NCBI GenBank assembly: GCA_003152995.1 | Contig: PMBR01000109.1 | Span: forward strand, 427-41,298 | DNA length: 40,872 bases | Reading direction: 5' to 3' | From: Chloroflexota bacterium | GTDB taxonomy: Bacteria; Chloroflexota; Limnocylindria; Limnocylindrales; CSP1-4 | Shown: in pieces, positions 4,465 to 39,441 of the stretch | Numbering within the stretch: position 1 is the first letter of the stretch | Layout: every line of letters starts with the position of its first letter | Made by a program: the position numbers and the translations under genes | The notes under the pieces: model-generated | Database searches by the model: none | What the model was told of the DNA's origin: nothing | What the model saw: only the letters and a program-made list of their open reading frames with translations

Positions 4465-4546
4465 TCTAAAGACATCGATATCGTTCTCATGGAGTAGGGG
4501 ACAAGGGCAGCCTGAGGGCGACCCGCAGACCGCGGTGGTGGCGTGA
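4448..4546 (+). CDS. possible leader ORF / displaced recombinase 3' end
   Basis: In the recombinase reading frame, the core supplies an ATG (4448) directly after a TGA (4445-4447). The frame stays open for 32 codons to TGA at 4544-4546, overlapping the methyltransferase start (GTGATG). In an excised circle this stretch is the natural C-terminus of the serine recombinase. In the integrated state it could be translated as a short leader coupled to the methyltransferase. No good ribosome-binding site precedes this ATG, so expression when integrated is uncertain. Confidence 0.35.
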   Translation: MVGARGLKTSISFSWSRGQGQPEGDPQTAVVA

Positions 4547-5919
4547 TGGCTGCCACGACTGCAGCCCCCTGGCGCTCCCGCATCGTCGGCCACGGCGAAG
4601 AGCCGCCCGATCAGCTACTGGCCCACCCGCTGAATTGGAGGATTCACGGCAAGGAGCAGCAGCGTGCCCTCGCCGGTGCACTCTCGGAGGTGGGCTGGGT
4701 TGCCCAGTGCTTGGTCAACCGGCGCACTGGCAATCTCGTGGACGGCCATCTGCGCGTCGAGCTGGCGATCGCCCGGGGCGAGCCGTCGGTCCCCGTCACC
4801 TATGTCGATCTGTCCGAGGACGAGGAGCGGATAGTCCTCGCGACGCTCGACCCTCTGGCGGCGATGGCCACCGCGGACAAGGCGAAGCTCGAGGAGCTGC
4901 TCCGCGAACTCACGCCCAACGACGACGCCCTTATAGCGATGCTCGCGGAGCTGGCCGAGCACAACGGGATCCTGCGGGCCGGCCTGACCGATCCCGACGA
5001 ACTCCCACCGGTTCCCGCCGAGGCGGACGTGTACGTCAAGCCCGGGGAGATGTACGCGCTCGGCGATCACCGGCTGCTCTGCGGGGATGCCACCAACTCC
5101 GACGACGTGGCGCGTCTCCTGGCCGGTGCCGAGCCGACGCTTCTCGCCACCGATCCGCCATACGGCGTGGAACTCGATCAATCCTGGCGCGACGGTGTGT
5201 ACAACGGCCCGCGCAAGCGGGTGCGCGGATGGTCCGTCAAACAGGGCGCCGAGCGGCCCTACATGATGCGCGATGGAGCATCCGACCAACCCGACGGAGA
5301 TGACGCGCCCACGGCGCCCGCGGCGCGCCACGGACGAACAGTCGGCCATCGCCAGACGAAGATCTCAGGTGACGTCCGGGCCGACTGGTCCGAAGCCTTC
5401 GCCCTCGTTCCATCCCTGGAAGTCGGGTACATCTGGTATGCCAGTGCGCACACCCTTGCGGTGCTCAACGGGCTCATATCGATCGGCTTCGAGCTCGCGC
5501 AGCAGATCATCTGGGACAAGGGGCTCTTCTCGATTGGACGGCAGTGGTATCACTGGGCCCACGAGCCCTGCTTCGTGGTCCGCAAGTCCGGGGCCAAGGT
5601 CCCCTTCTACGGCGAGCGCAACCAGGCCACGATCTGGCGGGCCCCCAGCCCCAAGAGGCTCGGCGCCGGAAGCACCGAGGCCAAGCAGGACCACCCGACC
5701 CAGAAGCCTGTCCTGCTGTTCGAGACTCCCATCGCCAACCATCTGAAGGCAGGCGAAGCCCTCTACGAGCCCTTCAGTGGTTCGGGCACGGCGATCATCG
5801 CCGCCGAGCAACTCGGCCGTCGCTGCTATGCGATGGAGATCGACCCCCGCTACGTGCAACTCGCGATAGAACGCTGGGCCGCGTTCAGCGGCGCTGTGGC
5901 GGTGCGCCTCGATGGCTAG
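4543..5919 (+). CDS. ParB-like/DNA methyltransferase fusion
   Basis: The protein has about 458 residues. The N-terminal part is a ParB/Srx-like domain (LNWRIHGKEQQRALAGA, then a GHLRVELAIARG-like segment). It is followed by an amino-methyltransferase with motif IV DPPYG near residue 204 and the SAM-binding motif FSGSGTA near residue 411. DPPY before the SAM motif is the beta-class order of N6-adenine or N4-cytosine methylases. This fusion is common in phages and satellites and modifies element or helper DNA. The start is GTG 4543 or ATG 4546, with no strong Shine-Dalgarno. In the excised circle the upstream recombinase frame ends at 4544-4546, so translational coupling would explain the weak site. 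No cognate restriction endonuclease is present, so it is an orphan methylase. Target specificity cannot be read. Confidence 0.88.
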   Translation: MMAATTAAPWRSRIVGHGEEPPDQLLAHPLNWRIHGKEQQRALAGALSEVGWVAQCLVNRRTGNLVDGHLRVELAIARGEPSVPVTYVDLSEDEERIVLATLDPLAAMATADKAKLEELLRELTPNDDALIAMLAELAEHNGILRAGLTDPDELPPVPAEADVYVKPGEMYALGDHRLLCGDATNSDDVARLLAGAEPTLLATDPPYGVELDQSWRDGVYNGPRKRVRGWSVKQGAERPYMMRDGASDQPDGDDAPTAPAARHGRTVGHRQTKISGDVRADWSEAFALVPSLEVGYIWYASAHTLAVLNGLISIGFELAQQIIWDKGLFSIGRQWYHWAHEPCFVVRKSGAKVPFYGERNQATIWRAPSPKRLGAGSTEAKQDHPTQKPVLLFETPIANHLKAGEALYEPFSGSGTAIIAAEQLGRRCYAMEIDPRYVQLAIERWAAFSGAVAVRLDG

Positions 5920-5976
5920 GCCGACACGATGTAGCGATGCTGACGCGGATTCCGGCGTGGGAGAAGGGGTGGCCAG

Positions 5977-6393
5977 GTGACAGAAGTGACACCCAAAAGC
6001 CGGCGCGACTGGCGACCGAGCTTCCTTGCGACCTTTGGCAGCACCGGCATCGTGCGCGTCGCCTGCCATGCCGCGGGCATCAGCCGCACCCAGGCATACC
6101 GGGAGCGGCAACGCAACCCGCGGTTCGCGACGGCCTGGGACCAGGCGCAAGAGGACGCCATCGAGATCCTCGAAGCCGAGGCGCGCCGCCGGGCGATGAG
6201 CATGAGCGACACCCTCCTGATCTTCCTGCTCAAGGCCAACCGGCCGGCCGTCTATCGCGACAACGCCCGCCTCGAGCTGACCGGAGCGGCCGGCGGCCCG
6301 ATCGTGACTCAGGTCCTCTCTGGACTCGACGACCACGAGAAGGCGGCCCTGCGCAAGGCCATCGACGAGGTGCTGGCCGAGGAGAAGGAGTGA
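5977..6393 (+). CDS. terminase small subunit-like protein
   Basis: This 138-residue protein has an N-terminal helix-turn-helix (VACHAAGISRTQAYRERQR), followed by the segment ATAWDQAQEDAIEILEAEA and a LKANRPAVYRDN motif. These are typical of phage terminase small subunits of the HTH/transposase-like type, which bind the packaging site and present DNA to the large subunit. It starts with GTG 57 bp after the methyltransferase. It overlaps the terminase large subunit by four bases (GTGA), indicating translational coupling. The assignment rests on this pattern and on context. Confidence 0.82.
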   Translation: MTEVTPKSRRDWRPSFLATFGSTGIVRVACHAAGISRTQAYRERQRNPRFATAWDQAQEDAIEILEAEARRRAMSMSDTLLIFLLKANRPAVYRDNARLELTGAAGGPIVTQVLSGLDDHEKAALRKAIDEVLAEEKE

Positions 6394-7814
6394 ACGTCTC
6401 GGCCGGACGCCTGCGGAGCCTGCCTCGGGCGACCCTGGAAGCCCTGCGGGCCGAACTCGGGCCCCGCTTCGTCAACGCCCAGCAGCGGGCCTTCTTCGAC
6501 TCCGATGCACCAGAGGTGCTCTATTCGGGCGCCTTCCGGGCGGGCAAGAGCCGCATCGGCTGTGAGAAGGCCTACTACCTCGCGAAGACATACCCGGGCA
6601 TTCCGATCGGCATCTTTCGCAAGACCGCCGCCTCGCTCCCGGCTTCGACTGAGCGGACGCTCCTGGTGGACGTCATACCCGCAGGGTCGATCGCGCGGTC
6701 CAACGCCGCCCAGCACTGGTATGAGCTGCCCAACGGCTCGCGCATCTGGCTCTTCGGTCTAGATCCCGACCCGATCACAGGCGTCCCCTCCAAGGTCGGC
6801 TCGGTCGAGTTGGGCTGGGCCTTCATCGACGAGGCGGCCGAGTGCAGCGAGGGCGACTGGGTCATGGTCAAGGGCCGCCTTTCCTGGCCAGGGATTCCGT
6901 ATCACCAGCTCACCGCGGCCACCAACCCGGCGGGCCCGACCCACTGGCTCAAGAGCAGGTTCACGCCACCAAGTCCGTCCCGGGTCTACCTCCACGCCTC
7001 GACCTTCGACAACCCGGCTCTGGCGGCCGACTATCTCGCCGAAGCCCATGCGAGCCCGGACGACTTCTATCACCGGCGCTATCACCTGGGTGAATGGGTC
7101 GCCGCGCAAGGTGCCATCTGGAATCTGCCCGACGACCAGGTCCGAGCCGCGGGCCAGACCGACTGGCACCACGTCTTTGCCGGGATCGACTGGGGCTACC
7201 AGCACGCCTTCGCCTGCGAGGTGGTCGGAGCCACAGGAACCGGTCGCCTGGGGGTACTCGGCGAAATCTACGAACACCGGCTCACCCTCGACGATCTCAT
7301 ACCAGCCCTCACGGAGTTGCAGAAGCGTTTCCGGATCGAGGCTTTCTACGGCGATCCCTCCGAGCCCGCCTACATCGACGCCTGCCGGGCCAAGGGTCTC
7401 AACATCCGCAAGGCCGAGAACGCGGTCCTGCCGGGTGTCACCGCGGTCACAGCCGCCATCGCCGCCGGTATGACCGTGGACCCCTCCTGCGTCGGTCTCC
7501 TGGCCGAGATGCCGGGCTACTCCTGGAAGCCCGAGCGCGGGTCGGGCGAGATGACCGACGTTCCCGTCAAAGCCCACGACGACGCCTGCGACGCCTTGCG
7601 CTACGCGGTCATGGCCCACAACGCGCCGGAGCCCGGCATCATCGGTCTATACAGGCATCTCGTCGCCGAGGCCACCGCGAAGCAGACGGGCTCGGTGGCG
7701 CAAGTTCAGCCCCAGCGCTGCGGTGGTCGCTACCTGACGTTGATCGACTCGATCGGCCGCTGCGGTATGCCTGCTGGCCACGCAGGGCGGCACGGAGAGG
7801 GGACGGGCAGGTGA
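6390..7814 (+). CDS. terL: terminase large subunit
   Basis: This 474-residue packaging ATPase/nuclease has all expected motifs. Walker A SGAFRAGKS lies at about 46-54, Walker B WAFIDEAAE at about 144-152 and coupling motif TAATNP at about 175-180. The RNase-H-like nuclease acidic residues are in GIDWGY (about 266), YGDPSEP (about 322) and HDDACDAL (about 397). A short Cys/Gly-rich C-terminal tail follows. It starts with GTG 6390, overlapping the small subunit stop; the open frame further upstream is only the shadow of the methyltransferase. It is apparently intact. In phage it would join a portal and prohead, but no such genes are here. It may package element DNA into helper capsids, or direct packaging of a separate particle. 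Confidence 0.93.
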   Translation: MNVSAGRLRSLPRATLEALRAELGPRFVNAQQRAFFDSDAPEVLYSGAFRAGKSRIGCEKAYYLAKTYPGIPIGIFRKTAASLPASTERTLLVDVIPAGSIARSNAAQHWYELPNGSRIWLFGLDPDPITGVPSKVGSVELGWAFIDEAAECSEGDWVMVKGRLSWPGIPYHQLTAATNPAGPTHWLKSRFTPPSPSRVYLHASTFDNPALAADYLAEAHASPDDFYHRRYHLGEWVAAQGAIWNLPDDQVRAAGQTDWHHVFAGIDWGYQHAFACEVVGATGTGRLGVLGEIYEHRLTLDDLIPALTELQKRFRIEAFYGDPSEPAYIDACRAKGLNIRKAENAVLPGVTAVTAAIAAGMTVDPSCVGLLAEMPGYSWKPERGSGEMTDVPVKAHDDACDALRYAVMAHNAPEPGIIGLYRHLVAEATAKQTGSVAQVQPQRCGGRYLTLIDSIGRCGMPAGHAGRHGEGTGR

Positions 7815-8453: not shown

Positions 8454-8459
8454 GCTGCC

Positions 8460-8475: not shown

Positions 8476-11400
8476 CTAGTAGCTCTCGAGATCGGATAGG
8501 CGACCCCGTAAAGCCAGTCGTTTGGACACATCAGCCACGAGTTCACGCACGGTCGGATCGCCGCTCGCCCCGAAGCGCGACATAAGCTCCTCGAAGCAGG
8601 AGATCTCCTGGTCATGGCGGTCGAGCTCGCCGAGCGTGACGCCTCGGTTGAACAACGCCATCGCTACTTCGGCCCGAGGCTCAACTCCATCCTTGACTAT
8701 GAGCGCCCGGATTAGTTCCTCGTAGGCCGCCGCAGCTTGCTGCGGTTGGCCCGTTTGCCCGAGAAGCACACCTCTGTTGAAACGCGCCCGCACTACTTCT
8801 TCCACGAACTCAATGGACTCCTCGCCGCCGAACCGTTCGATCAACTCGTGCAAAGCTGCGATGGCCTCGGTTTCCCGGCCGAGCGCTGCGAGAGCCGAGC
8901 TCTTCGCAGAGAGGGCGCGCGCCAACTGCCGGCGCATTGCGACATCTGAGGCGTTGTCGAGTCGATCAACGATCGCTGTGGCGCAGGCGAGCGATTCCAC
9001 GTCTCGCCCCAATGCCTCCAGGCGATTTGCTTTGTTCACCAAGCACTTCGCCTGGAGCTCGCGCAAAGCTGGTTCCGCCGGTTGTTCACCCAGTCTGGCG
9101 AGTGCGGCATCGTAGATGCCTATGGCTTCGGCCGCATCTTGGGTCGCCGCAGCCTTGTTGTATGTAGCTCGAATTACATGCCCCCGCAGCTCGACTTCGT
9201 CTGATCCGCCGAACCGGCTGATTACCTGATCACAACCAGCTATGAGTTCCTCCAGCCGACCGAGCCCGTCGAAGCAGAAGCATTTCACCATCATTGCTGC
9301 TGCTACCTGTCTCTGGAAGCCAGGATCCCTCGAGTCGATATAGCGACTGACGACCTCGTTCGCGATGTTGGCAGCTTCGTCCAGCGAACCGGACTCAGCG
9401 AGCGATGAGGACAAGCGGACTCGCCCAATCGCGACGCGAAGCCGCATCTCTTCCTCATCGTTAGCGTCGAATTTGGTAACGAATCCGCGGAAGACCGGGA
9501 TCGCTTCGGCGGTGCGTTGCAACTGAGCCAGGCGCGTGCCGAGGTCAACCATGGCCATCGCGACTTGGCGAGGGAGCTCCGGCTCGCTGGCCTCACCGAA
9601 GAGATCAATGACTTGCCGGTAGGTCTCCATCTCCATCTCGTAGGAACCCAGCTGGCCGAGAGAGAGCCCTTTGTTGACCAGCGCGGCAGCCCATTCTTCA
9701 TGTCCCTCGACTGGAGTTGGCCCAAGAGCAGGGCAGGATCGCTCCCGATAGCTCGCTATTTGATCGTCGTAGGTAGCTAGCTGGCCAAGGCCGAGCCCTC
9801 TCTGAAGGCCGTGTCGAACGTAGCTCGCGCGATCGACTTTCGTAGACGCAATTGCGTGGGCAATGGCCTCGTCAAATGCCGAGACTGCGGCTTCATGGTC
9901 GCCCTGTTCAGCCAGCCTATGTCCCTTGTTGAACAGAGCGATCGACGCCTGGCTCCGTAGGGCAGGTTCCTGAGCTTGGCCGTACCGAGTGCTGACCTCG
10001 GTATAGGCAGCGATCGCCTGATCCGGTCGAGCCAGCCGGTCGAACGCGAGCGCCCTGTTGAACATGGCCGTTGAGACCTGAATCTGAACCCGCGGATCAT
10101 GGTCCTCGCCATACCGAGCGACTACCTCCTCATCTACTGCGACAGCTTCAAGCCGGCGGTCAAGGCGTTCGAGCGCCACAGCCTTCAGCACCAACGCGCC
10201 GGCAGCGAGAGACCGCAGTTTGGGCTCATGAACGGCTCCGAATCGGTCGACTACTCTTTGATAGCCAGAGATCTCATCTTCTGGCCGTCCAGCTTCACCG
10301 ACAGCGCCGGCTTCGTTGATCATCGCCATCGCCACCTGGACCTGGAGCCCAGGTTCGGGGCTGTCGCCGTACCGGCGGAGAACCTCGTTGGACGTCGTGA
10401 TTGCCTCCGCCGGGCGCTGACTTTGCCGAAGCAGAGACGTCAAGTTGACGAGGGCCATGCCAGTTTGTTCGCGTAGCCCGGGATCCTTGGACGACCCGAA
10501 ACGATCTACCAAGTCGCGGTAGGCGGCAATGGCATCTGCCGACCGGCCAAGATTCGAGAAAGCAACCGCGGTGTTGTAAATGGCGGTAGCTACCTGATCC
10601 TGCAGTGCGGGTTCATGTGCCGTCCCCAACCGAGTAATCAGGGCTTTGTAGGCGCCGATCTCTGCATCAACACGATTGAGACGCCCAAGAGCCGAGCCTC
10701 GGCTTATCGTGGCTTTGGCAACGTGCTCACGCAGAACAAGAGACCTGGCTTCTCCGAACCGCTTCTCGACGCTCTCGAAAACGCTCACGGATTCTTCGTA
10801 TCGTCCAAGGTGGCTCAACAGCACACCGAGGTTCACCGAGGAAGCAGCGGCGGGATAAGGTTCGACCGCCCCGCTGGCTTGCCGCCAGGCCCCCTCGGCA
10901 TGGTCCACCTCCCCCTTCAGTACTCCCAGCAGGCCAACAGAGAGAAGCGACGTAGGATCGAGGAGCCTGATGGCCGTGTCCCACGTGAACTTCGGTATCG
11001 GCCGATGCACGTCGGTGGACGCTTCAGACAGATCCCCAGACCTTGCGGCTACTAGGTAATCGAACGGGACATAGCCTCCGTTCGGCTCAAGCCGAAGGAG
11101 CGAGACCGAGGGAACATCCGATTCGGGAGCAGTGGCCCAATCTAAAGCCTCCTGCATCAGCGCGTCGTCAGGCTCCCGTTCAGGCGCGAGCTCCCGGAGG
11201 TACTGCGGAAAGAGCTGTGAGAGTTCGTCTCGCGAGATCGGCCTGTCGACACCGATCCGCCGGTAGTCAATTGCGGAGTAGATCACAGCTGCCCGCTCCG
11301 GCTTTCGGATGGGCGCTTCTGCGAGCTTCTCCAGCATTCGCGCACCGCCAATGAGAAAGGCGCCGAGGCCGCGTCCTTTCGGTAGTCTCAAGCCAGGGTA

Positions 11401-12993
11401 TGTGGTCGAGAGGCTGATCTGCTCTGCGAGCGTGGTCAGCTCAGACTGAAGCACGCACGGTGGACCCAGCACATCCAGAATTCGAACAACCTCTGCAGCA
11501 AGCTCGGTTTCGCTGCCATCCCAGCCGTGGAGCTTTTCGTAATCGACCGCCTGCATGGTGGCTATCAGCGCGACCTCTGGGAACTCTCGCTGGATCCGCA
11601 AGATCAGTGATATGTCGAGTGCGTTCGTGGCTAGGAACGGCAGCACGTCGTCGAACCACAGGACATAGCTTTTGCCTGGCACCGAACGATGACGGTCACG
11701 TGCAAGTAACTCCCGCACCACGTTGGAGTTGGCGTTTGGTGATCCTGCTACCAACAGCGTCGCATCCGGACAGCAGCGACGGATCGCCTCATAGGCAGAC
11801 CTGCTCTTGCCCGACTTGGAATCCCCGATGAGCAACGCTATCCGCCTCTTGGAGATAGCCGCATCCAGACAATCATCGACGCTCCGTCCAACATAGGGAG
11901 GACGGAGTTGGTCGCCACTCATAGCCTCCGCGATCGAGGATCGAGATACCCCTATCTCGTACGGATCGATGTCTCCAACCAACGCGGGCGGAATCCGCAG
12001 TAGTTGGGCAACTCCTGCTTTTGCGCCAGCAGCAGCGGCCTGCGACGCCACCGGCTCTGCATCGGATGGGGTCGACTCGGACCACCGGCCCCCGATCTTC
12101 TCAATAACGGCGACCGCGAAAGCAGCTGCAGCGTCGGCAGCATAGCCGTGCCAGTCGTCGTTCTTGCTCGTATCCGCGAGGTCCGAGACGGCCTTAACTA
12201 CAAGAATGTCTGGCGGCTGTGTGGATTCCGCTGCGGCAGAGAAGACGCCGCCAGCCTCAGTGTCGACCGTAACGACTTTGTCCCACCGAGACAGTACTTC
12301 CCGGACGGCCGGGGCTTCTTCATCTGCCCATACATCTTCGCCGGAAGCCATGTCGCCGCGGACTATCCTTGGAACGCCAGGTTCATTGGCAGGCTTGCTC
12401 GCAGAAATCTGCCGATGCCACCGCGGATCGGTCTCCATCGCGAGGGCATCGACAGCTGTCAATAGCCGGGGAGACGCCTCTCGCGAGGGCCCTCGAAGGC
12501 GACGCGAACCTGGGGTTAGCTTGCCAGGCTCGTAGTAGTGGATCCGGTTCGGAACCACGACATCGCCCAGCTGCGCGCCTCGAGATGCCACACCCCCTGC
12601 GATCCCGACGAGCAGTAAATGTCTCGGTTTCCAGCCGGAGATGAGGTCGCTGGCCGCATTCTGGGCCGCTAGTTGACCCATCTGACTTGCCTTGACGCAG
12701 ACGACTGACTGCTCGGAACCGTCCTGACAGTGGACGAAAGATCTGTAGTAGTGGCGAATGTCACGCGACCCTAGGTCGACCTCTTCGTACTTCCCAAGCG
12801 CGGACAGCATTGCCGCCAACTCTTCCTGCAGCGCAACAACTACCCCAAAGTCAGTTTTGGAGGAATCCGTGCGGATCGCGGGTCGCCGTGCTGGAGCCTC
12901 CCTATTTCGCGCCCTTCCGGCAGCGTGGTGCCGCGGCAGACGCTTGGCCACGGAGAACGCTCCTTTCGCGACTACACAGCGGGGGCCGTTCAA
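8476..12993 (-). CDS. PNP-like nucleosidase / STAND NTPase / TPR protein (NLR-like)
   Basis: The protein has 1505 residues in three parts. Residues about 47-300 are a PNP_UDP_1 (nucleoside phosphorylase/nucleosidase) domain with GIAGG (130-134), GDVVVP (143-148), a glutamate-bearing DTEAGG (244-249) and VSDLAD (269-274); the catalytic-type Glu and Asp are kept. Residues about 365-680 are a P-loop NTPase with Walker A GDSKSGKS (390-397) and Walker B YVLWFDDV (443-450). Residues about 680-1500 hold some 19 TPR-like repeats with a period near 43, each with a core like ALFNRGxxLGxLGR. Effector-NTPase-solenoid is the layout of STAND/NLR immune receptors, and the PNP-NTPase-TPR order also occurs in fungal NLRs. 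I infer that the TPRs sense a trigger and the PNP domain acts on a nucleoside or nucleotide. The start is TTG 12993 with AAGGGGCAGG upstream; the first 46 residues are weakly supported. It sits alone, without partner genes. Confidence 0.9.
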   Translation of the reverse strand: MNGPRCVVAKGAFSVAKRLPRHHAAGRARNREAPARRPAIRTDSSKTDFGVVVALQEELAAMLSALGKYEEVDLGSRDIRHYYRSFVHCQDGSEQSVVCVKASQMGQLAAQNAASDLISGWKPRHLLLVGIAGGVASRGAQLGDVVVPNRIHYYEPGKLTPGSRRLRGPSREASPRLLTAVDALAMETDPRWHRQISASKPANEPGVPRIVRGDMASGEDVWADEEAPAVREVLSRWDKVVTVDTEAGGVFSAAAESTQPPDILVVKAVSDLADTSKNDDWHGYAADAAAAFAVAVIEKIGGRWSESTPSDAEPVASQAAAAGAKAGVAQLLRIPPALVGDIDPYEIGVSRSSIAEAMSGDQLRPPYVGRSVDDCLDAAISKRRIALLIGDSKSGKSRSAYEAIRRCCPDATLLVAGSPNANSNVVRELLARDRHRSVPGKSYVLWFDDVLPFLATNALDISLILRIQREFPEVALIATMQAVDYEKLHGWDGSETELAAEVVRILDVLGPPCVLQSELTTLAEQISLSTTYPGLRLPKGRGLGAFLIGGARMLEKLAEAPIRKPERAAVIYSAIDYRRIGVDRPISRDELSQLFPQYLRELAPEREPDDALMQEALDWATAPESDVPSVSLLRLEPNGGYVPFDYLVAARSGDLSEASTDVHRPIPKFTWDTAIRLLDPTSLLSVGLLGVLKGEVDHAEGAWRQASGAVEPYPAAASSVNLGVLLSHLGRYEESVSVFESVEKRFGEARSLVLREHVAKATISRGSALGRLNRVDAEIGAYKALITRLGTAHEPALQDQVATAIYNTAVAFSNLGRSADAIAAYRDLVDRFGSSKDPGLREQTGMALVNLTSLLRQSQRPAEAITTSNEVLRRYGDSPEPGLQVQVAMAMINEAGAVGEAGRPEDEISGYQRVVDRFGAVHEPKLRSLAAGALVLKAVALERLDRRLEAVAVDEEVVARYGEDHDPRVQIQVSTAMFNRALAFDRLARPDQAIAAYTEVSTRYGQAQEPALRSQASIALFNKGHRLAEQGDHEAAVSAFDEAIAHAIASTKVDRASYVRHGLQRGLGLGQLATYDDQIASYRERSCPALGPTPVEGHEEWAAALVNKGLSLGQLGSYEMEMETYRQVIDLFGEASEPELPRQVAMAMVDLGTRLAQLQRTAEAIPVFRGFVTKFDANDEEEMRLRVAIGRVRLSSSLAESGSLDEAANIANEVVSRYIDSRDPGFQRQVAAAMMVKCFCFDGLGRLEELIAGCDQVISRFGGSDEVELRGHVIRATYNKAAATQDAAEAIGIYDAALARLGEQPAEPALRELQAKCLVNKANRLEALGRDVESLACATAIVDRLDNASDVAMRRQLARALSAKSSALAALGRETEAIAALHELIERFGGEESIEFVEEVVRARFNRGVLLGQTGQPQQAAAAYEELIRALIVKDGVEPRAEVAMALFNRGVTLGELDRHDQEISCFEELMSRFGASGDPTVRELVADVSKRLALRGRLSDLESY

Positions 12994-14689: not shown

Positions 14690-14755
14690 CCGACAAACCG
14701 CCTCTCGGTATATGGCGCGAACGACAAGCAACGTCGAGCAGAGCGAATCGAGCGA

Positions 14756-27462: not shown

Positions 27463-27550
27463 TTGAGCCACGCCTGAGCACCCAGTTTCGCGACTAACCG
27501 CGCATAGTGCCGGCCCAGTCGCTGCTATGGATACGACAATTGACCCGGGT

Positions 27551-30493: not shown

Positions 30494-30593
30494 CGCGCAA
30501 GCCCCCGTAGCGATCGACAAGCCCCTGCTGGCAGTTTACCTGGCGAGATCGTGCACTACGTGGTCATCGTGCGGGCGGCCAGCACAGCTGTGA

Positions 30594-31073: not shown

Positions 31074-31141
31074 ACGTTGAGGTTAGCAGAGCCGCGCGGC
31101 CGCATTTCAGTGGCGCTATCAAGCCGTAGTCAGGGTTGCGT

Positions 31142-31792
31142 TCAGCTCTTACGGGTTCCGCCCGGTGTATCGCCAGTATCTGAGGAACCCGAAGAACTGC
31201 GCTTGCCTGCCATCTTGTCAGTCGCTCTTTGTAGGGCCGTGAGATCAAGCTTTCGCGCGGTCTCGGCGTCGAGAACCAGCAACTCCTGGCCGCTCAGTAC
31301 CCTTTCCTCCTGTCGTCGAAGCGCGCCGAGCATTGCGGCAATCGCCCGGTCGATCTCCTCGACATCCTCACGCTTCCACGGGTTCCAGAAGAAAAGCACA
31401 ATGGGCGCCATCCACGGTCGACTTGGCCACGGATGCGCAAGCCGGATGATGGCGTTGGCCCACGCGTCGTAAGCCCGAAGCTCTCCCAAAAGACTCAGGT
31501 CGGCGAGAGTGAGCTTGGCCATCTTTCGTTTGGCTTGCCATCCGATCCACATACCACTGAAGAAGCGGAGCTCACCGGAAGCGGCGTCTTTCATGAGATT
31601 CGTGAAGACGACGCAGTACTCACGAGTTTCGCGGATCTGCTCCCTGCGGAAGTCGCGAAGCCTGTCTTTCCTGCGCCGGCCCTCTTCGAGCCGGCCGGCA
31701 AACAGGCTTCCGCCGACATTTATCAGGCCGACGATCGTGGCGGCGATCGCGGTCAGTAGACCCGCCAGAAGAATCGCAGTCGCCTGATCCAT
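31142..31792 (-). CDS. single-span membrane protein, coiled-coil
   Basis: The protein has about 216 residues. I chose the ATG at 31792 because a membrane span (AILLAGLLTAIAATIVGLIN) begins a few residues later; an upstream in-frame start at 31858 adds only unstructured residues. After the span comes a charged helix (EEGRRRKDRLRDFRREQIRE), a Trp-rich middle and a helical C-terminus. I do not recognise the family. It is encoded 68 bp upstream of the DUF2321 gene on the same strand, possibly in one transcript. Confidence 0.65.
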   Translation of the reverse strand: MDQATAILLAGLLTAIAATIVGLINVGGSLFAGRLEEGRRRKDRLRDFRREQIRETREYCVVFTNLMKDAASGELRFFSGMWIGWQAKRKMAKLTLADLSLLGELRAYDAWANAIIRLAHPWPSRPWMAPIVLFFWNPWKREDVEEIDRAIAAMLGALRRQEERVLSGQELLVLDAETARKLDLTALQRATDKMAGKRSSSGSSDTGDTPGGTRKS

Positions 31793-32030
31793 CAGGCTGA
31801 CGGGAGTTCGCGCAAATGCGCGTTGGGTTCGACAACCAGTTTGGTCGGCCGGTGCCACCAGTCGTTCATCGCCCTCGCCTCCTGCTCGGACCCTCCTCGG
31901 CGCCCGACGCCTCGGTTGTCAGGATACCCCTGCCGTCGCTCCCCTAGATCCCACACGAGCGGGTGATGGTGTTGCCGGTCGCACGGGAGTCCGGCTGCGA
32001 GTCTTGTGGACCGGCCCAAGAAAGCGTCAA

Positions 32031-32876
32031 CTATGGCCGATAAATCTCTGCGCTCGATAGCGTCGGGCCGCTAGCTGTGGCAAGGCCGCAGAAGACGAGG
32101 ATACGACCATCGTTGAGCGTGGCGGCCATCGGGGCCACGCGGGCTTGCAACATGTTGCCGGTCTTCGAGAAGACCCCGGTCGCCGGATCGTACGGCTCTG
32201 CCGACCCAGGTGTGCCATCGCCCGCAACTAGGACAGAACCGTTAGGCAATAGCGCGGCGATAGACTGCCGGTGGGTCGAGTTCATGTCGCCGGTGCGAGC
32301 AAACCGACCCGTGGAGGGATCATAGAGTTCGGCCTCGAGGACCCCGGAGCAAGTGTTTCCACAGGCCTCCCCACCTGTCACAAGTGTGCGTCCGTCGCTC
32401 AGCAAGGTGCCGTTCTGCGACATGCGGCCGGCAATCAGTGAACCTATCGCGTGGAACTTTCTTATGGCCTGCCCGAAGGCGGCCCCGACCTTTGGCATGG
32501 GGACTACGGTTCCGTTGTGGTACGCCCGGCCCATCGCCTCGTCGTAGGCGGTCGTGAACGCATACGCCGACTCAGGCGCCTGCGCAGCAAGCTCACGGAC
32601 GCGATCTGCAAATCGGGCGGCCCTCGCCTCGTCCTGTTCGGCTTGGCGTGCATCGCGCGCATCCTGGATCGTGCGCTTGGCGACGGCCAGGGCGGCCCAG
32701 GCGCCGACTGCGGCGCCAACCACGCCACCGCCCACTCCCGCAATGGCACCGACAATGGCCCCTTGCACAGCCGGATCGGCAGACTTGACGCTCACCAGCA
32801 CAGCGATGCCGAAGCCAAGCCCGGCAGCTGCCACGGCTACCACCGGGAGGACGATCCGCGGACCCCACTTGCCCAT
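32031..32876 (-). CDS. membrane protein with C-terminal Kelch repeats
   Basis: This 281-residue protein has two N-terminal hydrophobic segments (about 8-28 and 38-66, Gly/Ala-rich), then a helical coiled stretch (about 66-100), then a C-terminal region (about 145-281) with three Kelch-type repeats (LLSDGRTLVTGG, LLPNGSVLVAGD, TLNDGRILVFCG). The repeat style is the same as in the lipoprotein at 13406-14689. Three blades are too few for a closed propeller, so the gene may be a recombinant fusion or truncated. It ends in TAA shortly after a blade-end motif (AEIYRP). Location is probably the membrane; function is unknown. Confidence 0.7.
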   Translation of the reverse strand: MGKWGPRIVLPVVAVAAAGLGFGIAVLVSVKSADPAVQGAIVGAIAGVGGGVVGAAVGAWAALAVAKRTIQDARDARQAEQDEARAARFADRVRELAAQAPESAYAFTTAYDEAMGRAYHNGTVVPMPKVGAAFGQAIRKFHAIGSLIAGRMSQNGTLLSDGRTLVTGGEACGNTCSGVLEAELYDPSTGRFARTGDMNSTHRQSIAALLPNGSVLVAGDGTPGSAEPYDPATGVFSKTGNMLQARVAPMAATLNDGRILVFCGLATASGPTLSSAEIYRP

Positions 32877-33090
32877 GCAGTGATTGTCGCAGCGCGATAA
32901 GCCTGACGTAAGCTGACACCGCTAGCCTCGCCCATGGCCCCCGCTCCGCTGGTCGCCGACGATCCCGGCCCGGTGCCGGCCAGTTCGAGCGACTGCGTCG
33001 GGGGCGCCCTTCGGAACACTCGCCAACGGCGTACAGTGGCTCAATCGGCTGGCCACCCTGGCGCGCCAGCGGCTAGTGGGGGCGAGACGT

Positions 33091-34470
33091 ATGTCACGCG
33101 TGACTGAGCGTATCGGAGCGCACCCGGCCTATGCCCAGCTGGTGGGCGCTAGGCGCCGTTTGGCAGAGGTCGCACCGCCGAGCGACTCGGACTCATTTCA
33201 GTCGTATGAGCGAATCCGGCAGGTGCTGGAGCGGGTGGAGAGCCTCATCAACGAGGCCGACCCAGCCCTCGTGTCGCCCGATCTCCTGCAGCTCATGGCG
33301 CCCATCATGGCGGAGCTGGCAACGGCTGTAGAGCAATACGCCCAGACGCCCGACGCTCCGCAACTTGCAAGTGCTGAGGCCAAACTGGACGCACTGATCG
33401 CCGTTATCGGGTGGCCCATCGCGTACGCCTTCAAGAAGCCATCGGGGATGGGCCAGGCCGTGGCTTCTTACCGAGACGCGGTGCAGACCTACCTAGGCAG
33501 ACTGCGGAAGCAGGGCGATCAGTTAGCGGCGCAGCTGGCATCGCTGCAGGCCGAGGCCGAGCAAGCCACGGCGACAGTGGCCTCAGCTGCCACCGATGGC
33601 GTTGCCGAAGCGAATGCAGTCGCCGCTGCGGCCGAGGCACGTCTGACCGCGGCTTCCTCTGATGCCGACACCACCTTGGCTGCAGCTATAACCGCGGCCG
33701 AAACACAAGCCAACGCCCTTGTCGCCACAGCCGAGGAACACCTGACCACATTGGCAGCGGCTGTGGAGGCGCACAAGGCCCGCTTGGATACTCTGACCGC
33801 GAGCTACAGCGACGTGTATACGGCGGAGCAGAAGGTGCGCGATGCCAATGCCGCCGCGGCGCTGACAGACGAGGCCGCCCGAAATGAGGTCGCCCGAGCA
33901 GCGGCAGCCGCGGCTGCACAGACAGCACTTGCCGGGTGGACAGCGGACGCCCAGGCAACGCTCGACAAGCTCGCCGCCTGGGAAGCGGATGCCGAGCGCC
34001 GGGGTAAAGACATGCTCGGCGCCCTTGCCGGGCGGGCCATGGCTGCCGGCTATGGCAAGTACGCGGACGACGAACGGCGGACCGCCAACTGGCTCCGGCG
34101 GGGTGCGGTCGCCGCTGGGGCGGTAGCCATCCTGTGGTCGGTGGGGGTTGCCGCCTTTGCGCTTAGCTCGGCGTTCGAGTGGACCTTGTTGCTGCGATTC
34201 CTGGCAGCCGTCCCGATGTTGGCCATCGCGCTGTACCTGGGCGAGCAGTCCGGCAAGCACCGAGACACTGAGCGCCAGGCCCGCCGAAGCGAGCTAGAAC
34301 TGGCCGCCCTGGACCCCTACCTAGCCAGCCTAGACCCCGTGAAGCGGGGCGAGGTCAAGGAGAAGCTCGCGGACAGGATGTTCGCCCAGCCGCAGGTCCC
34401 AACCGAGGCTCCCTCCGACGTGATCGGCCGCCTGTTTGACCTGTTGGAGAAGCTGATCAAGAAGCAGTAG
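33091..34470 (+). CDS. long coiled-coil membrane protein
   Basis: This is a 459-residue, Ala-rich protein. ATG 33091 has a GGGGGCGAG stretch upstream; GTG 33076 is an in-frame alternative. Residues about 95-320 are predicted coiled coil (EAEQATATVASAATDG and similar heptads). Two membrane spans lie at about 337-385, then a charged helical C-terminus. This resembles no family I can name. The topology suggests a membrane-anchored cytoplasmic coil. It is divergent from the membrane/Kelch gene with about 214 bp between starts. Confidence 0.75.
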   Translation: MSRVTERIGAHPAYAQLVGARRRLAEVAPPSDSDSFQSYERIRQVLERVESLINEADPALVSPDLLQLMAPIMAELATAVEQYAQTPDAPQLASAEAKLDALIAVIGWPIAYAFKKPSGMGQAVASYRDAVQTYLGRLRKQGDQLAAQLASLQAEAEQATATVASAATDGVAEANAVAAAAEARLTAASSDADTTLAAAITAAETQANALVATAEEHLTTLAAAVEAHKARLDTLTASYSDVYTAEQKVRDANAAAALTDEAARNEVARAAAAAAAQTALAGWTADAQATLDKLAAWEADAERRGKDMLGALAGRAMAAGYGKYADDERRTANWLRRGAVAAGAVAILWSVGVAAFALSSAFEWTLLLRFLAAVPMLAIALYLGEQSGKHRDTERQARRSELELAALDPYLASLDPVKRGEVKEKLADRMFAQPQVPTEAPSDVIGRLFDLLEKLIKKQ

Positions 34471-34858
34471 CCGGCCCCGTTCCGCCTTACTAACTCGGTG
34501 CCAGTACCTCGGCGAGGGCAGCAGGTCGCGGTGGAGGGCCGGCTCCAGACCCGGCAGGGACGACGACCGCGGCACGCGCCATTGTTAGGTTCGACCCGCA
34601 GCCATTAGGCCCCCGCGCAGCCGCTCCGGCTTGCCGCACCACGTCGGGATCGTCGTTTAGGATGGCTTCTGACCGCGTCGTCCGACGCGCACAGGAGGGT
34701 TGGCGACATGGGTGGTTGGGAGAAGGCTGCCGATCCCCGCGCTTCCCATCCACTCGGACACGAAACGGATGCTTGGGCACGATGCCGCGATAGCGTTGCT
34801 ATTGCGGGCCCGCGGAGTGAGTCATGTGGGCGTCCACTCCGCACCCGAGGCGCCCACC
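34471..34858. other. intergenic region upstream of the tyrosine recombinase
   Basis: There is no firm gene. AGGAGGG at 34693-34699 is a strong ribosome-binding site eight bases before ATG 34708, which opens an 84-codon frame to 34962 (MGGWEKAADPRASH) overlapping the recombinase start in another frame. The peptide has no recognised features. It could be a short leader, or the site could serve a recombinase start at TTG 34700, only one base away from it. Confidence 0.3.
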
Positions 34859-35794
34859 ATGACCGCTCAACCCTTGCCCGCCCTGACCAGCGGAGACCCC
34901 TCCGCGTGGGACCAGGCCCTCTACGCCTTCTTGATCGAGAAGGGCAACCGCTCAGGGTCTAGGAGAACCGTCGAGTCATACAGCCGGATGCTCTGGCCCT
35001 TCTTCGCCGAGCGCAGCTTGACCCCAGATCGAGTCAAGCCTGGCGAGGTCCTCGCCTGGGTCCACGGCATCGGGAAGTCGGGCCGGACACCGTCCTCGAC
35101 CACGGTCGGCGCCCGGATCGCCTGTCTCTCCTCCTTCTACCGCTTCCTGATTCGGATGGGCCTGGTCGTGTCCAATCCCTGTGACGCCGTCGAACGCCCA
35201 AGAGCCGTCCAGTCGGTCGCCCGTGGATACAGCGCCGACGAGGTGCGACGGCTCCTTGCCGTCGTCCCCGACACCGTGGCCGGCCGCCGGGACAGGGCGA
35301 TCCTGCTGACCCTGGTATTAACCGGAAGGCGTCGAGCCGAGGTGGTTGGTCTGAAGGCTGGCGACCTCAGCATCGAAGGCGAGACGGTCTTCTACGCCTA
35401 CCGAGGCAAGGGCGGTAAGAGAGGACGACGGGAACTCCCCCGCCCTGCATACGAGGCGATATGCGCGACGCTTGCCGATGCCGGCAAGGAGCTGGCCTCG
35501 ATGACTCCGGCCGAGTCGCTCTGGCAAGCCGCCGCACGAGTGGAGGGAGTCACGAGCGGCACGTTCTACGCTAGGTTCCGCCGATATCTGCAGCTTGCCG
35601 GCATGGCCCCGACCGGCATACACGTCTTGCGGCATACCGCGGCAAAGCTGCGGCGAGATGCCGGGGAGTCGATCGAGGGAATAAGTTCATGGCTCGACCA
35701 TTCGAGCCTGCAGGTCACTTCTGTCTATCTGCGGCGGCTTGAGGGGCAGGAGGATCTGACCTGGCGCGACGTGGCCGAAGCGATCGGACTGTAG
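34859..35794 (+). CDS. tyrosine recombinase (XerC/D-like integrase)
   Basis: This is a 311-residue phage-integrase-family protein. It has an N-terminal SAM-like core-binding domain (about 15-100) and a C-terminal catalytic domain with the expected residues: Arg in TGRRRAEVVGL, Lys in RGKGGKRGRRE, HVLRHTAAK (His-x2-Arg), LDHSSLQVTSVY (His and nucleophilic Tyr). Length and motifs are those of XerC/D-like recombinases. ATG 34859 fits the start of the conserved domain; a TTG at 34700 would add 53 residues of poor character. It differs from the serine recombinase at the element end, so it may mobilise an inner cassette or resolve dimers. No att pair for it was recognised. Confidence 0.9.
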   Translation: MTAQPLPALTSGDPSAWDQALYAFLIEKGNRSGSRRTVESYSRMLWPFFAERSLTPDRVKPGEVLAWVHGIGKSGRTPSSTTVGARIACLSSFYRFLIRMGLVVSNPCDAVERPRAVQSVARGYSADEVRRLLAVVPDTVAGRRDRAILLTLVLTGRRRAEVVGLKAGDLSIEGETVFYAYRGKGGKRGRRELPRPAYEAICATLADAGKELASMTPAESLWQAAARVEGVTSGTFYARFRRYLQLAGMAPTGIHVLRHTAAKLRRDAGESIEGISSWLDHSSLQVTSVYLRRLEGQEDLTWRDVAEAIGL

Positions 35795-36995: not shown

Positions 36996-37229
36996 ATGGA
37001 CAGCTCAAGAGTCAGAACCTTCATCGCCATCTATCGCGGCCGCACGGCGTCAGACGCGCGTCTGGTCGCCATCACCTCCGACCCGGCCATCGTCGCAACC
37101 GTTGTCGGGCAGATGCTCGCCGACCAGAAAGACGGAACCGGCGACGATCCCGTAGTCGGTGCGATCGACCGGGCTCGTCGCCACGGGCTACGCGTCATTC
37201 GGCGCGAGCTTCGAGATCAGCGGCCATGA
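36996..37229 (+). CDS. small hypothetical protein, first gene of replication operon
   Basis: This is a 77-residue protein with an ATG at 36996. It is beta/alpha in character (RVRTFIAIYRGRTASDARL) with a basic C-terminus. It overlaps the Prim-Pol start by four bases (ATGA at 37226-37229), which marks it as translationally coupled. The family is not recognised; an accessory role in replication is suggested by position only. Confidence 0.65.
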   Translation: MDSSRVRTFIAIYRGRTASDARLVAITSDPAIVATVVGQMLADQKDGTGDDPVVGAIDRARRHGLRVIRRELRDQRP

Positions 37230-39196
37230 CGACGCTGCTGGACGCAGCCCTGGAGATGGCCGCAGCGGGCTGGGCCGTCATCCCGCTGCACTCACCAGTC
37301 GATGGCGCCTGCGATTGCCGCAAGCCTGACTGCCCGTCGCCAGGCAAGCATCCGCGGACCAAGAACGGCCTGAGGGATGCGACCACCGACGCCGATCAGA
37401 TCCGCCGCTGGTGGGCCATGTGGCCTGACTCGAACATCGGCGCAGTGGTTCCCGACGGCTATGTCGTCGTAGATGTGGACGTGGCCGACCTCGCGACAGT
37501 GTTCGCGGCCGGCGAGATCCCGGCAACCGCAACCGCGAGGACTGGGCGAGGCTGGCATTTCGTCTATCGCACGCCCGTGCCGGTCAGACCAAAGGTCGCT
37601 GTGCGAGAGCACGTCGATCTGCGAGGGCCTGGCTCGTACATCGTCGTGGCCCCATCGCGGCATGCGAACGGCAGGCAGTACGAGTGGGTGACAGCACTCG
37701 CCGAAGGCGTCGCCCCGGCTCCCGAATGGGTGCTGCGGGCCGCCGGACCCCGACCTCAGGAGCCAGGAGGCGCTGAGGGCGCGCCGATCCCCCAGGGCAG
37801 TCGGAACGACACACTGGCACGGTTGGCCGGTGCGATGCGGCGCCAGGGGATGACGGTCGATGAGATCTCCGTCGCGCTGCAGGCCGTGGACGTTGCGCGC
37901 TGCCGCCCGCGGCTCGAGCCCGAGGAACCCGGCTCGGTCCGACGGATCGCCGCCAGCATCGGGCGCTACGCACCCGCCGAAGCCGCCAAGGCCGCGCCTT
38001 GGCCGGAGCCCGAAGATCGCGGCACCGCTACGCTGTCCGAACTGGGGGACGTGCAATACGTCGAGGACCTCGTTCGACCCGGCCGCATCATCGTGTGGGC
38101 TGCCGAAGAGGGTTCGGGCAAGAGCTACGCCGTCGACGACGAACTTGCGATCCGGGTCGCGGTGGCAGGCGGGTCTTTCGCGGGCACTTGGCCGATCCTC
38201 CAAACCGGGCCGGTCCTGGTGCTCTCCGAGATGCATTCAGATGACGACTATCAGCGCGAGACGACCGTGCTCGCCTCGCTCGGCCTTGAGCGCTCGGCTC
38301 TGGCGGATCGCTACTTCCGATTGCCGTTGATGACCGCGGCCGGCGGCAAGCCGGCCCTCACGGTACCGGAATGGCAGGAGTGGATCACAACGTGGCTGCG
38401 CGACCATGAAGCGCTCCTGTTGGTGGTCGACACTGCGACGGGCGCGACTCAGGTCGACCCGTGGGGCGCGGCGATCCAATCCGTCTACCAGAACCTCCGA
38501 GGCATGCTGGCCGCCTATCCGGCCCTGGCCGTGGTCCTGGTCGTTCACTGCAAGAAGCCGAGCGGCCGGGGTGATCGGCGCCTGTCCGACGTTCTCGGCG
38601 AGTGGGGTCGCTGGTGCGATGTGGTCGTGCTCCAGGAGAACGACGGAGCGAGTCTGACGCGGACGAAGATCTCGGTCCGCAAGCGCGTCTCCCACGAGCG
38701 GCGGATTGTCGCCACCAAGGCCGGCGGCCTCCTGGTCGATCCGCATGACCTCGTCTCCGAAGGGCCGAAGGTTGGGCTCGACACGGTCGTCAATGTCATC
38801 GCTGGCGCCTTGGGCATGACCATCAAGGACCTGGCGAAAGCTCTCAAGGTGGCCCCGTCGACAGCAGCGACCTACGCGCAGGAGGCCGAGCGCAGCGGGC
38901 GGATCGAGCGACGGCGGAGTGGCCCGAAGGGGCAATTCAGGCTGTATCCGGTTACCAGCGACCCAGGCGAAAGCGCTCCTTCCAATCCTCCGAGTGCTTC
39001 CGCCGAGGGGTTCGGAAGCTTCTGGGACACCACCCCCCGAAGCGATCCGGCTTCCTTCCGACCTTCCGACGACCCTATAGGGTCGGAAGGAAGCCGGTCG
39101 GAAGGAAGCGGCTCCGTGGGCCCAGCGGACGGCATCTTCGGCGACCAGGGCGGAGCGGAGACCGACCTTGGGCAGCGGGACAGGGGGCCAGCGTGA
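37226..39196 (+). CDS. Prim-Pol/AAA replication protein
   Basis: The protein has 656 residues. The N-terminal bifunctional primase-polymerase domain (about 1-170) has GKHPRTKNGLRDAT, the catalytic-type acidic VVVDVDV near 80-86 and a GRGWHFVYR segment. The AAA/RepA-like helicase domain (about 270-470) has Walker A AEEGSGKS near 291-298 and Walker B LLVVDTA near 398-404. The C-terminal winged helix is at about 525-590 (IKDLAKALKVAPSTAATY), then a Gly/Ser-rich tail. Prim-Pol-helicase fusions initiate and drive replication of plasmids, AICEs and phage satellites. It overlaps both neighbours by four bases. DNA for its tail carries the repeat cluster at 39047-39109, so the replication origin may lie inside the gene. 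Confidence 0.92.
   Translation: MTTLLDAALEMAAAGWAVIPLHSPVDGACDCRKPDCPSPGKHPRTKNGLRDATTDADQIRRWWAMWPDSNIGAVVPDGYVVVDVDVADLATVFAAGEIPATATARTGRGWHFVYRTPVPVRPKVAVREHVDLRGPGSYIVVAPSRHANGRQYEWVTALAEGVAPAPEWVLRAAGPRPQEPGGAEGAPIPQGSRNDTLARLAGAMRRQGMTVDEISVALQAVDVARCRPRLEPEEPGSVRRIAASIGRYAPAEAAKAAPWPEPEDRGTATLSELGDVQYVEDLVRPGRIIVWAAEEGSGKSYAVDDELAIRVAVAGGSFAGTWPILQTGPVLVLSEMHSDDDYQRETTVLASLGLERSALADRYFRLPLMTAAGGKPALTVPEWQEWITTWLRDHEALLLVVDTATGATQVDPWGAAIQSVYQNLRGMLAAYPALAVVLVVHCKKPSGRGDRRLSDVLGEWGRWCDVVVLQENDGASLTRTKISVRKRVSHERRIVATKAGGLLVDPHDLVSEGPKVGLDTVVNVIAGALGMTIKDLAKALKVAPSTAATYAQEAERSGRIERRRSGPKGQFRLYPVTSDPGESAPSNPPSASAEGFGSFWDTTPRSDPASFRPSDDPIGSEGSRSEGSGSVGPADGIFGDQGGAETDLGQRDRGPA
39047..39109. 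repeat. iteron-like repeat cluster, candidate origin
   Basis: GGTCGGAAGGAAGC occurs twice in direct orientation (39081-39094 and 39096-39109, 15-bp period). It also occurs once inverted as GCTTCCTTCCGACC (39050-39063), part of a perfect 17-bp inverted repeat (39047-39063 with 39081-39097). The 17-bp spacer holds CCCTATAGGG, itself part of a near-palindrome. Iterons of this kind are bound by Rep proteins at origins. The encoded peptide is low-complexity (GSEGSRSEGSGSV), consistent with DNA-level constraint. Confidence 0.55.
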
Positions 39197-39441
39197 GCAC
39201 GCCGTGGCGGTCCTCGGGTTCCAAGGCTGCCCCAGCCGGTGCCGCAGCTGAGCCCGTGTGGACCGCCTCGTCAGGCCAGGCCTTGCGGACCAATCCGGAC
39301 CGCCTGATCCGGGTTCTCGCCGAGGGCCTGCGGACCATCGAGGAGCGTCGCGCACGCGAGCAGACGGAGTTCCGAAACAGAGCAATCATCGTGCCCCCAA
39401 AGACGGAGGAACCAAGCGATGAGCCTACCCCGGAACCCTGA
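39193..39441 (+). CDS. small hypothetical protein between rep and recombinase
   Basis: This is an 82-residue protein with a GTG start overlapping the Prim-Pol stop (GTGA). It ends 22 bp inside the recombinase gene (TGA at 39439-39441). The middle helix (RLIRVLAEGLRTIEERRARE) is amphipathic and the C-terminus is Pro/Glu-rich. A recombination directionality factor or DNA-binding accessory protein is conceivable from its place beside the recombinase, but it has no recognised helix-turn-helix. Confidence 0.6.
   Translation: MSTPWRSSGSKAAPAGAAAEPVWTASSGQALRTNPDRLIRVLAEGLRTIEERRAREQTEFRNRAIIVPPKTEEPSDEPTPEP

Follow-up and report, generated by a model that had tools for sequence, protein, structure and literature searches.

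Here we analyse a stretch of 40,872 nucleotides from a Chloroflexota bacterium of the CSP1-4 lineage (assembly GCA_003152995.1, contig PMBR01000109.1), hereafter the window, and in particular the gene for a large serine recombinase at its right end. In our numbering the window is G000:C103:427-41298, and the contig (G000:C103, 41,298 bp) stops at the window's last base, inside a short repeat that we read as the attachment core of a mobile element. The recombinase gene enters this core with its frame open, and another copy of the core, near the left end of the window, is followed by a short frame that continues it. Together with its relatives, this makes it probable that the attachment site lies inside the 3' part of the recombinase gene, such that integration would split off a conserved C-terminal tail and excision would rejoin it. 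The reading is drawn from sequence, namely from read-through of the core, matching of reading frames, conservation of the tail as protein, relatives with body only and with body plus tail, and the overlap of the tail's stop with a following start.

The recombinase gene and its core in the window

The enzyme has an N-terminal catalytic Resolvase domain (PF00239, 2.3e-11, above the cut-off) followed by a Recombinase domain (PF07508, 4.3e-4, slightly under threshold with 20.9 bits against a cut-off of 21.1), which is the order found in large serine recombinases, and it matches phrog_95 at 1.1e-44. Across 29 aligned recombinase sequences S22, C279 and C299 are invariant and C282 nearly so; we take these to be the conserved serine of the RES(T) motif and the zinc-ribbon cysteines. 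The whole-length fold is like that of solved large serine integrases. A phmmer search of one recombinase against the PDB gave 0 matches.

The repeat AATGGTCGGGGCGAG is present at 3377-3391, 4447-4461 and 40858-40872. At the right copy the recombinase open reading frame (ORF) runs, with no stop, up to the partial codon AG. At the left copy, base A 4462 completes this to AGA, after which the frame continues through GLKTSISFSWSRGQGQPEGDPQTAVVA to a TGA at 4544-4546. The starts of a methyltransferase ORF, GTG 4543-4545 and ATG 4546-4548, overlap this stop. A first-pass annotation of the window had described the junction in this way (frame open into the core, open again when joined to 4447, stopping on GTGATG), and a base-by-base check confirmed it. 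Its placement of the core at 40858-40872 stands as far as the repeat is concerned, but the contig end cuts the core there and the core is longer (TGGTCGGGGCGAGAGG) in relatives; the third copy, at 3377, was absent from its account. The contig end was also considered as proof of an assembly fork and rejected, since the contig stops 3 bases short of the end of the relatives' core.

The same annotation envisaged one continuous overlapping operon across the joined ends. On the right-hand side the overlaps are there, with 36996-37229, 37226-39196, 39193-39441 and the recombinase from 39419 onwards running into one another, but on the left a gap of 57 nucleotides separates the methyltransferase from the small subunit of terminase (TerS). 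A scan for consensus sequences alone gave 0 promoter-like sites in 4300-6100.

By itself the open frame is weak evidence, because 58% of random starts in this GC-rich window stay open for at least 28 codons. The overlap of stop and start is better evidence: of 20,000 random starts, 312 (1.6%) run to a first stop that overlaps a start codon whose ORF encodes 300 amino acids or more. Since an open frame is so common by chance, relatives were tested.

Table 1. Features of the window, the recombinase and the attachment cores first
Feature	Position	Strand	Remarks
Large serine recombinase body	39419..40872	+	484 codons from ATG 39419, open at contig end; enters core in frame B (MVGARG)
Right attachment core copy, attR side	40858..40872		Cut by contig end; full core in relatives is TGGTCGGGGCGAGAGG
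Left attachment core copy, attL	4447..4464
Recombinase C-terminal tail	4451..4546	+	Frame B, 31 codons counted from core (VGARGLKTSISFSWSRGQGQPEGDPQTAVVA) and stop
ParB-like/DNA methyltransferase	4543..5919	+	Start overlaps tail stop; profile matches
Terminase small subunit (TerS)	5977..6393	+	phrog_4044, 3.3e-24
Terminase large subunit (TerL)	6390..7814	+	phrog_2, 4.7e-41; inferred GTG start overlapping TerS stop; ORF open from 5544
Third core copy and second frame-B tail	3377..3470	+	VGARGFEPAIPTCRLIVPVWIADALRGAA, then stop; similar tails in L237, L238, L239
Small ORF, first of overlapping run	36996..37229	+
Prim-Pol primase with AAA domain	37226..39196	+	PF09250, 1.4e-36
Small ORF, primase-recombinase interval	39193..39441	+
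Cargo between phage-type ends	8476..34470		TPR, Kelch, RHS protein of 3327 amino acids, sigma factor, STAND/TPR, DUF2321
Tyrosine recombinase	34700..35794	+	Profile matches

Read-through and the tail among relatives

We compiled 92 distinct recombinase C-termini, having dropped matches that end before query residue 430 and removed duplicates with more than 95% identity over the last 120 residues. The core was recognised in 78 of them, and in 76 of these the ORF passes the core. A tRNA-Pro(CGG) or tRNA-Arg(CCG) adjoins the core in 27 of the 78. Such integrated copies end with GRGERI and a stop (TGA inside the antisense T-loop) or enter the antisense tRNA (e.g. GARGFEPPTSSS or ARPTGFEPATFGSGG). 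In virus contigs without a tRNA, the ORF mostly runs on into recurring, conserved C-terminal tails of the types GRGERxxxSxxQIRGCRVTMP..RRIRLVG and ARPTGVG..TTYRIPIEGRDEWLAA..SA, each closed by a stop. The same kinds of tail follow directly after the core at the left ends of integrated elements. Two claims made for the window, that the recombinase gene spans the phage attachment site (attP) and that integration alters the recombinase C-terminus, are thus borne out by relatives; the window has the core inside the ORF and the tail at the left attachment site (attL) only, and the differing C-termini of integrated and free forms are seen in the relatives.

Because the gene reads through the core, integrated copies end at the antisense tRNA and matching tails stand at the opposite end, integration, to judge by these sequences, is an exchange of a conserved C-terminal module that lies outside the canonical recombinase fold. 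This part of the reading, the anatomy of the gene and the exchange of its C-terminus, we regard as very probable.

Frames point the same way. A set of 100 distinct right arms was grouped, with arms shorter than 135 bases or containing Ns dropped; 15 hold a tRNA, and the other arms fall into 77 clusters that are less than 85% identical to one another. Frame A or B has an open length of 22-50 codons in 72 of these 77 tRNA-less clusters; random positions from those loci reach this in 40% of cases. The p-value (5e-23) is overstated in that the clusters share ancestry. Pairs of cores were compared in 17 fetched loci and one joined contig. There are 16 pairs with a recombinase at the right core, and the body reaches the core in 14 (4 of these being fragments). 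The body's own frame is open at the left core for 28-43 codons in 13 of the 14, whereas 8 of the 28 alternative frames stay open for 22 codons or more (Fisher 8e-5).

Tail conservation is also seen at the protein level. The ratio of nonsynonymous to synonymous change (dN/dS) in the tail ranges from 0.1 to 1.0 over 21 Pro-type and 10 Arg-type pairs and lies below 0.6 in 26 of the 31, these pairs being non-independent; most Pro-type pairs have a lower ratio in the body than in the tail, and Arg-type pairs show no uniform trend. The third-position share of differences is 41/83 (p 0.002) in five chosen pairs (L169-L172, L173-L175, L174-L178, L081-L187 and L188 with the G128 left end). Conservation of attP at the DNA level is unlikely as the whole cause, as synonymous change (dS) in the tail is about equal to or greater than in the body in most Pro-type pairs. 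AlphaFold2 predicts two strands in a Pro-type tail (block means 72 and 80); its model of an Arg-type tail has one strand and one helix (block means 55, 90 and 79). Since solved large serine integrases align up to model residue ~469, ahead of the core, which starts near 476 in that model, the tail is, in the model, an appendage outside the catalytic and canonical DNA-binding domains. The list of structural matches mainly spans model residues 9-460 and hence has little bearing on the fold of the tail.

The same alignment would also suit a core that merely happens to sit in the last codons of an enzyme tolerating any C-terminus, so that the split is without consequence. Everything in the enzyme that aligns with solved integrases precedes the core, the bodies of integrated copies stay open and end in varied ways, and two recombinases (L039 and L102) stop just past the core. 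A trivial reading of this kind was offered by McMurdie et al. for the Dehalococcoides recombinase gene dsiB (PMC3146451; excerpts of this and of the other papers cited here underlie all our comparisons with known systems). However, the tails belong to recurrent protein families and almost every pair of them has dN/dS below 1, the tail is in the body's frame in 13 of 14 pairs, and strands and a helix are predicted in it. We consider such a passive overlap unlikely.

The first-pass annotation's claim that the recombinase stop overlaps the next gene extends from the window to its tail-bearing relatives. Among 25 tail-bearing recombinases (24 from virus contigs and the copy in the window's own genome), 23 have a tail stop overlapping a start codon whose ORF has 50 codons or more, versus 532 of 1490 random stop triplets. 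This would be expected if the tail mainly served the next gene by bringing ribosomes and a Shine-Dalgarno-like stretch to the overlapping start, with its conservation reflecting translational coupling. Four of the 25 tails (L177, L187, L191, L193) do end AGG TCN GC(A/G) TGA, with the AGG at the position of a ribosome site. Yet this account, which we hold to be quite improbable, leaves unexplained the conserved residues 15-25 codons upstream of the stop and the structure predicted there. The chances are slim, too, that the tail marks the enzyme for degradation and that integration strips this tag off, as happens in the integration-dependent immunity of mycobacteriophages. Many tails end in small residues (SA, TA, LVG, AG), and BPs-like systems have C-terminal tags on both repressor and integrase (PMC8092301), but the ends are not of the -AA type, the overlapping start codon partly accounts for them, and the strand-forming conservation lies further inward.

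Beyond the first gene, same-strand ORF chains were followed in seven records with gaps of up to 120 nucleotides allowed. They could be traced to the large subunit of terminase (TerL) in three (G118, G133 and G108), with a methyltransferase within the chain in G133 and G108 and a portal gene in G118 and G108. In G136, G126, G114 and G128 a gap or the limit of the retrieved sequence broke the chain before TerL, or only part of its ORFs was scanned. Upstream of the recombinase, a relative of the window's primase is present in six virus records and three genome contigs. The circle order predicted for the window (primase, recombinase, core, tail, methyltransferase, TerS, TerL) is therefore composed of orders seen in the family. 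Relatives of the window's methyltransferase occur in virus contigs (best 80 of 92 confirmed), and in L215 a tail similar to the window's, in frame B, stands ahead of a gene that is ParB-like by eye.

Integration targets, single records and the nature of the window element

In relatives from many genomes of the GTDB family, the recombinase is followed by TGGTCGGGGCGAGAGG, the 3' end, read in antisense, of a tRNA-Pro(CGG) that is intact. A sister group has tRNA-Arg(CCG) as its target. Relatives of the recombinase were found in 59 of 107 genomes of the family, and 55 loci were confirmed in a second genome collection, 51 of them in records labelled Chloroflexi or Chloroflexota (CSP1-4 included). 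The other four (L261, L285, L288, L295) lie in metagenome-assembled genomes labelled Actinomycetes (2), Thermoleophilia and Frankiaceae, which would mean either binning errors or a wider host range.

A tRNA had been expected to the right of the window. Relatives do have tRNA-Pro(CGG) there, but it was not found in the window's own assembly (73% complete). A covariance search of that assembly gave 30 tRNA matches, none of them tRNA-Pro(CGG) or tRNA-Arg(CCG) by ARAGORN; the list is incomplete, as ARAGORN found a tRNA-Ser on contig C48 outside it. The absence of tRNA-Pro(CGG) does not depend on this list alone, because a pattern search of the assembly for its 3' end returned only the 3377 site and two variants on contig C26. 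At L080 (G000:C26:6877 and 9621) two core-like sites (TGGCCGGGGCGAGAGG) lie 2.7 kb apart, with a tail-like open frame after each. Tandem arrays of cores are found on several contigs (L070, L071-L072, L237, L243), with up to six cores in one stretch (L237). In these arrays recombinase bodies abut the left ends of their neighbours, partly in frame and partly not. The third core copy of the window, at 3377, with its own conserved tail, is probably the left end of an older, mostly lost element reduced to about 1 kb (3377-4447).

The two arrangements can be seen in individual relatives. In G128 (IMG/VR, 71,171 bp) recombinase body, core and tRNA-Arg(CCG) lie on one strand at 27,390, and far left of the body, on the same strand, there are two tails, one at 70,679, 43.3 kb away and with an intact core, and one at ~67.0 kb with a broken core. 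The latter (L250) is fused in frame to a methyltransferase-like fragment and represents a decayed left end. In G136 (41,679 bp) the tail is attached to the body. This body equals that of G128 over the 40 bases left of the core, with 45 differences in 600 (92.5%), and both ends of the contig fall within the recombinase gene, ~0.4 kb apart in missing sequence, as they would if a circle had been opened at that point. The case for G128 as a clean split prophage is weakened by its having two tails left of the body. A further left end (L090) reads stop, core-like stretch, Arg-type tail, small ORF, methyltransferase (76% identical to the window's) and TerS, and in the record of L102 and L181 a primase stands upstream of the recombinase.

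Two other candidates were considered. L039, an IMG/VR record with the order recombinase, core, methyltransferase, was dropped as a circle junction: its recombinase is in frame A, and the tail on the methyltransferase side shows its conservation in frame B. Given this mismatch and a replication-initiator-like ORF upstream (read from the translation by eye), two tandem elements are the likelier explanation of its sequence. The window's assembly has a second, Arg-type recombinase (L081, G000:C48:91749-93152) with a core, a full tail and an ATGA-overlapping gene that is ParB-like by eye. As proof of excision it is equivocal: the assembly has only one Arg-type core, yet the contig ends 0.5 kb on.

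Several observations weigh against a tail that is split off by integration and rejoined by excision. The exact circle junction predicted for the window element had 0 matches in IMG/VR viral contigs. No core was recognised in 14 of the 92 C-termini, of which 13 count here (the window, with its cut core, being the other one). Recombinases that stop before the core (the first-pass annotation had named a stop well before it as fatal to its proposal) amount to 2 of 78, both decayed-looking. The body falls short of the core in 2 of the 16 core pairs, and in G037 (cores 18980-31596), the single failure among 14, there is only a 12-codon arm in the body frame. The AlphaFold2 models have a predicted template modelling score (pTM) of only 0.43 and 0.46, too low to place the tail, with parts of the tail below 60 in the predicted local distance difference test (pLDDT). 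In G128 either left end may belong to the body, and the 70,679 tail differs from that of G136 at 22 of 81 bases, which is more than the bodies do (45/600). In L039 and in L102 (same record as L181) the body stands in frame A and the tail behind it in frame B, with the ORF stopping two codons past the core; we read both as tandem junctions of two elements, though they could be free phages that have no in-frame tail, above all L102/L181 with its primase upstream. L215, the nearest relative of the window's tail, likewise follows frame-A sequence. The two left tails of G128 and the mismatch of L102/L181 led us to lower our confidence slightly. Finally, the two ends of the window element could come from different elements fused by deletion, with a middle that is not phage-like.

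This last point concerns the nature of the element. In its ten large middle ORFs we recognised no portal, capsid or tail families, where smaller ORFs were unscanned and profiles can miss divergent genes. Relatives of the Kelch and sigma proteins were found in other tRNA-Pro elements. The first-pass picture of a phage packaging operon is thus an overstatement. In three virus records TerL lies downstream on the same strand. Because terminase-bearing ends are combined with island-type cargo in which portal, capsid and tail genes were not recognised, we regard the element as island cargo set between phage-type ends; it may be a prophage that has become defective, a satellite, or what a deletion between tandem neighbours has left.

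There is a sizeable, if minority, chance that the 36-kb unit is composite or decayed, its ends belonging to different members of a tandem array, and that its own circle never forms or is non-functional. A middle of this kind, the likeness of the Kelch and sigma cargo to other tRNA-Pro elements and the third core copy alongside would all suit such an origin. Against it, the frames of body and tail match, and the orders primase-recombinase and tail-methyltransferase-TerS occur in phage relatives.

Other parts of the window may be noted. At 34700-36964, inside the element, the tyrosine recombinase is followed by a protein with a sigma-region-4/LuxR-type helix-turn-helix; tblastn (1e-8) found no match to this pair in the other fetched loci. 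The RHS-repeat protein (14756-24739), cargo of a tRNA-Pro element, lies between TPR and Kelch proteins. Outside the element, on the minus strand at 38-2977, there is an ORF of 979 amino acids that resembles a LuxR-type ATPase regulator by eye.

A proposed cycle of splitting and rejoining the recombinase gene, and its precedents

Putting these pieces together, we propose the following cycle. In the free circle, the recombinase gene would read through the core into the conserved tail (~27-43 codons counted from the core), and end in a stop overlapping the start codon of whichever gene comes next in the leftward module (methyltransferase, TerS and TerL in the window). The recombinase would integrate the element at the 3' end of tRNA-Pro(CGG), or of tRNA-Arg(CCG) in the sister group. 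After integration, the right attachment site (attR) would hold body and core, and the gene would stop within the antisense tRNA or a little way beyond it; the tail would stay at attL until excision rejoined the two. Both forms of the protein may be made, and the tail may alter the activity, direction or stability of the recombinase, in which case integration would limit itself until the gene was made whole by excision. The downstream genes, likewise, may be expressed differently in the integrated and free states.

These later steps deserve differing degrees of belief. We see about an even chance that the tail controls the recombinase, and we think it possible, though less likely than not, that integration silences the packaging genes. 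Also speculative, and rather unlikely as a whole, is a scheme in which the tail would act as a state-dependent control module: the tailed form from the circle would integrate, the stripped form would be locked or poised for excision, and excision would restore the tail, the recombinase and the coupled downstream genes. In tandem arrays the left end of the newest arrival would then supply the resident's tail (in frame or truncating) and so re-set its neighbour.

The idea of an integrase gene that spans its attachment site is not new, since phage Mx8, the streptococcal rumA integrative and conjugative elements (ICEs) and the dsiB islands of Dehalococcoides (a genus we take to be Chloroflexota) have such sites inside the integrase gene. 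In Mx8, attP lies within the integrase gene, which acquires another 3' end on integration (PMC6070905). The prophage enzyme has 13 residues in place of the C-terminal 112 and shows lower activity (PMC4701971). The Chloroflexota family resembles Mx8 in the position of the site and in the changed C-terminus. However, the Mx8 enzyme is a tyrosine recombinase that has a large part replaced, whereas in the Chloroflexota serine recombinase the canonical fold stays complete and what is lost is an additional tail. The rumA ICEs are closer in that a serine integrase gene holds the site and its integrated and excised forms encode different C-termini (PMC4701971). They insert into a protein gene, exchanging its 3' part reciprocally, and the excerpt does not describe a conserved tail or downstream coupling. 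The serine recombinase dsiB overlaps the attachment repeat of the tRNA-like gene ssrA, has its stop beyond the repeat and occurs in tandem islands, and its authors suggested that it is perhaps fully functional only on the circle (PMC3146451). These features recur in the present family, but dsiB is ccrB-like with a partner, dsiA, the ends are divergent and no conserved tail is shown in that excerpt; our family targets tRNA-Pro(CGG) and tRNA-Arg(CCG) and has conserved tail families.

More distant are the SSV-type 'suicidal' integrases, archaeal tyrosine recombinases whose gene spans the attachment site and is cut by integration (PMC8371274); the two parts are non-functional, with the catalytic domain separated. 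The window-type enzyme, in contrast, is a serine recombinase whose body keeps all canonical domains ahead of the core. In mycobacteriophage BPs and relatives, attP lies within a coding sequence and integration shortens the product by 20 to 35 residues (PMC8092301). There the gene is that of the repressor, the integrase is a tyrosine recombinase and the tail is often an ssrA-like tag, whereas the core described here is in the recombinase gene. The first-pass comparison with mycobacteriophages that have attP in the repressor gene is therefore apt as to a coding attP, but Mx8, the rumA ICEs and dsiB, all integrases spanning attP, are nearer precedents.

Our literature search found no description of a conserved family of split tails, of its coupling to the next gene or of tRNA targeting by such a serine group, and no paper joining serine recombinase, attP, tRNA and Chloroflexi. 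According to the excerpt from the Islander database paper (2014; PMC4383910), serine-family integrases were not known to target tRNA genes; the present family shows serine recombinases with tRNA genes as their targets. The findings also carry a warning, in that a recombinase C-terminus read from an integrated element of such a family may be tRNA antisense or neighbouring sequence and not the enzyme's own end.

Serine integrases are widely used as genome-writing tools, and guarding against reversal of the reaction is a central question in their use. In this context, the family offers a natural case in which the enzyme would have its C-terminus edited by the integration reaction itself, and many relatives represent each of the two arrangements. 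The prediction is that tailed and tail-less versions of one enzyme would differ in direction, activity or stability. The hosts in which such a switch may operate are those of the phages and mobile islands of environmental Chloroflexota bacteria, among which the family is found.

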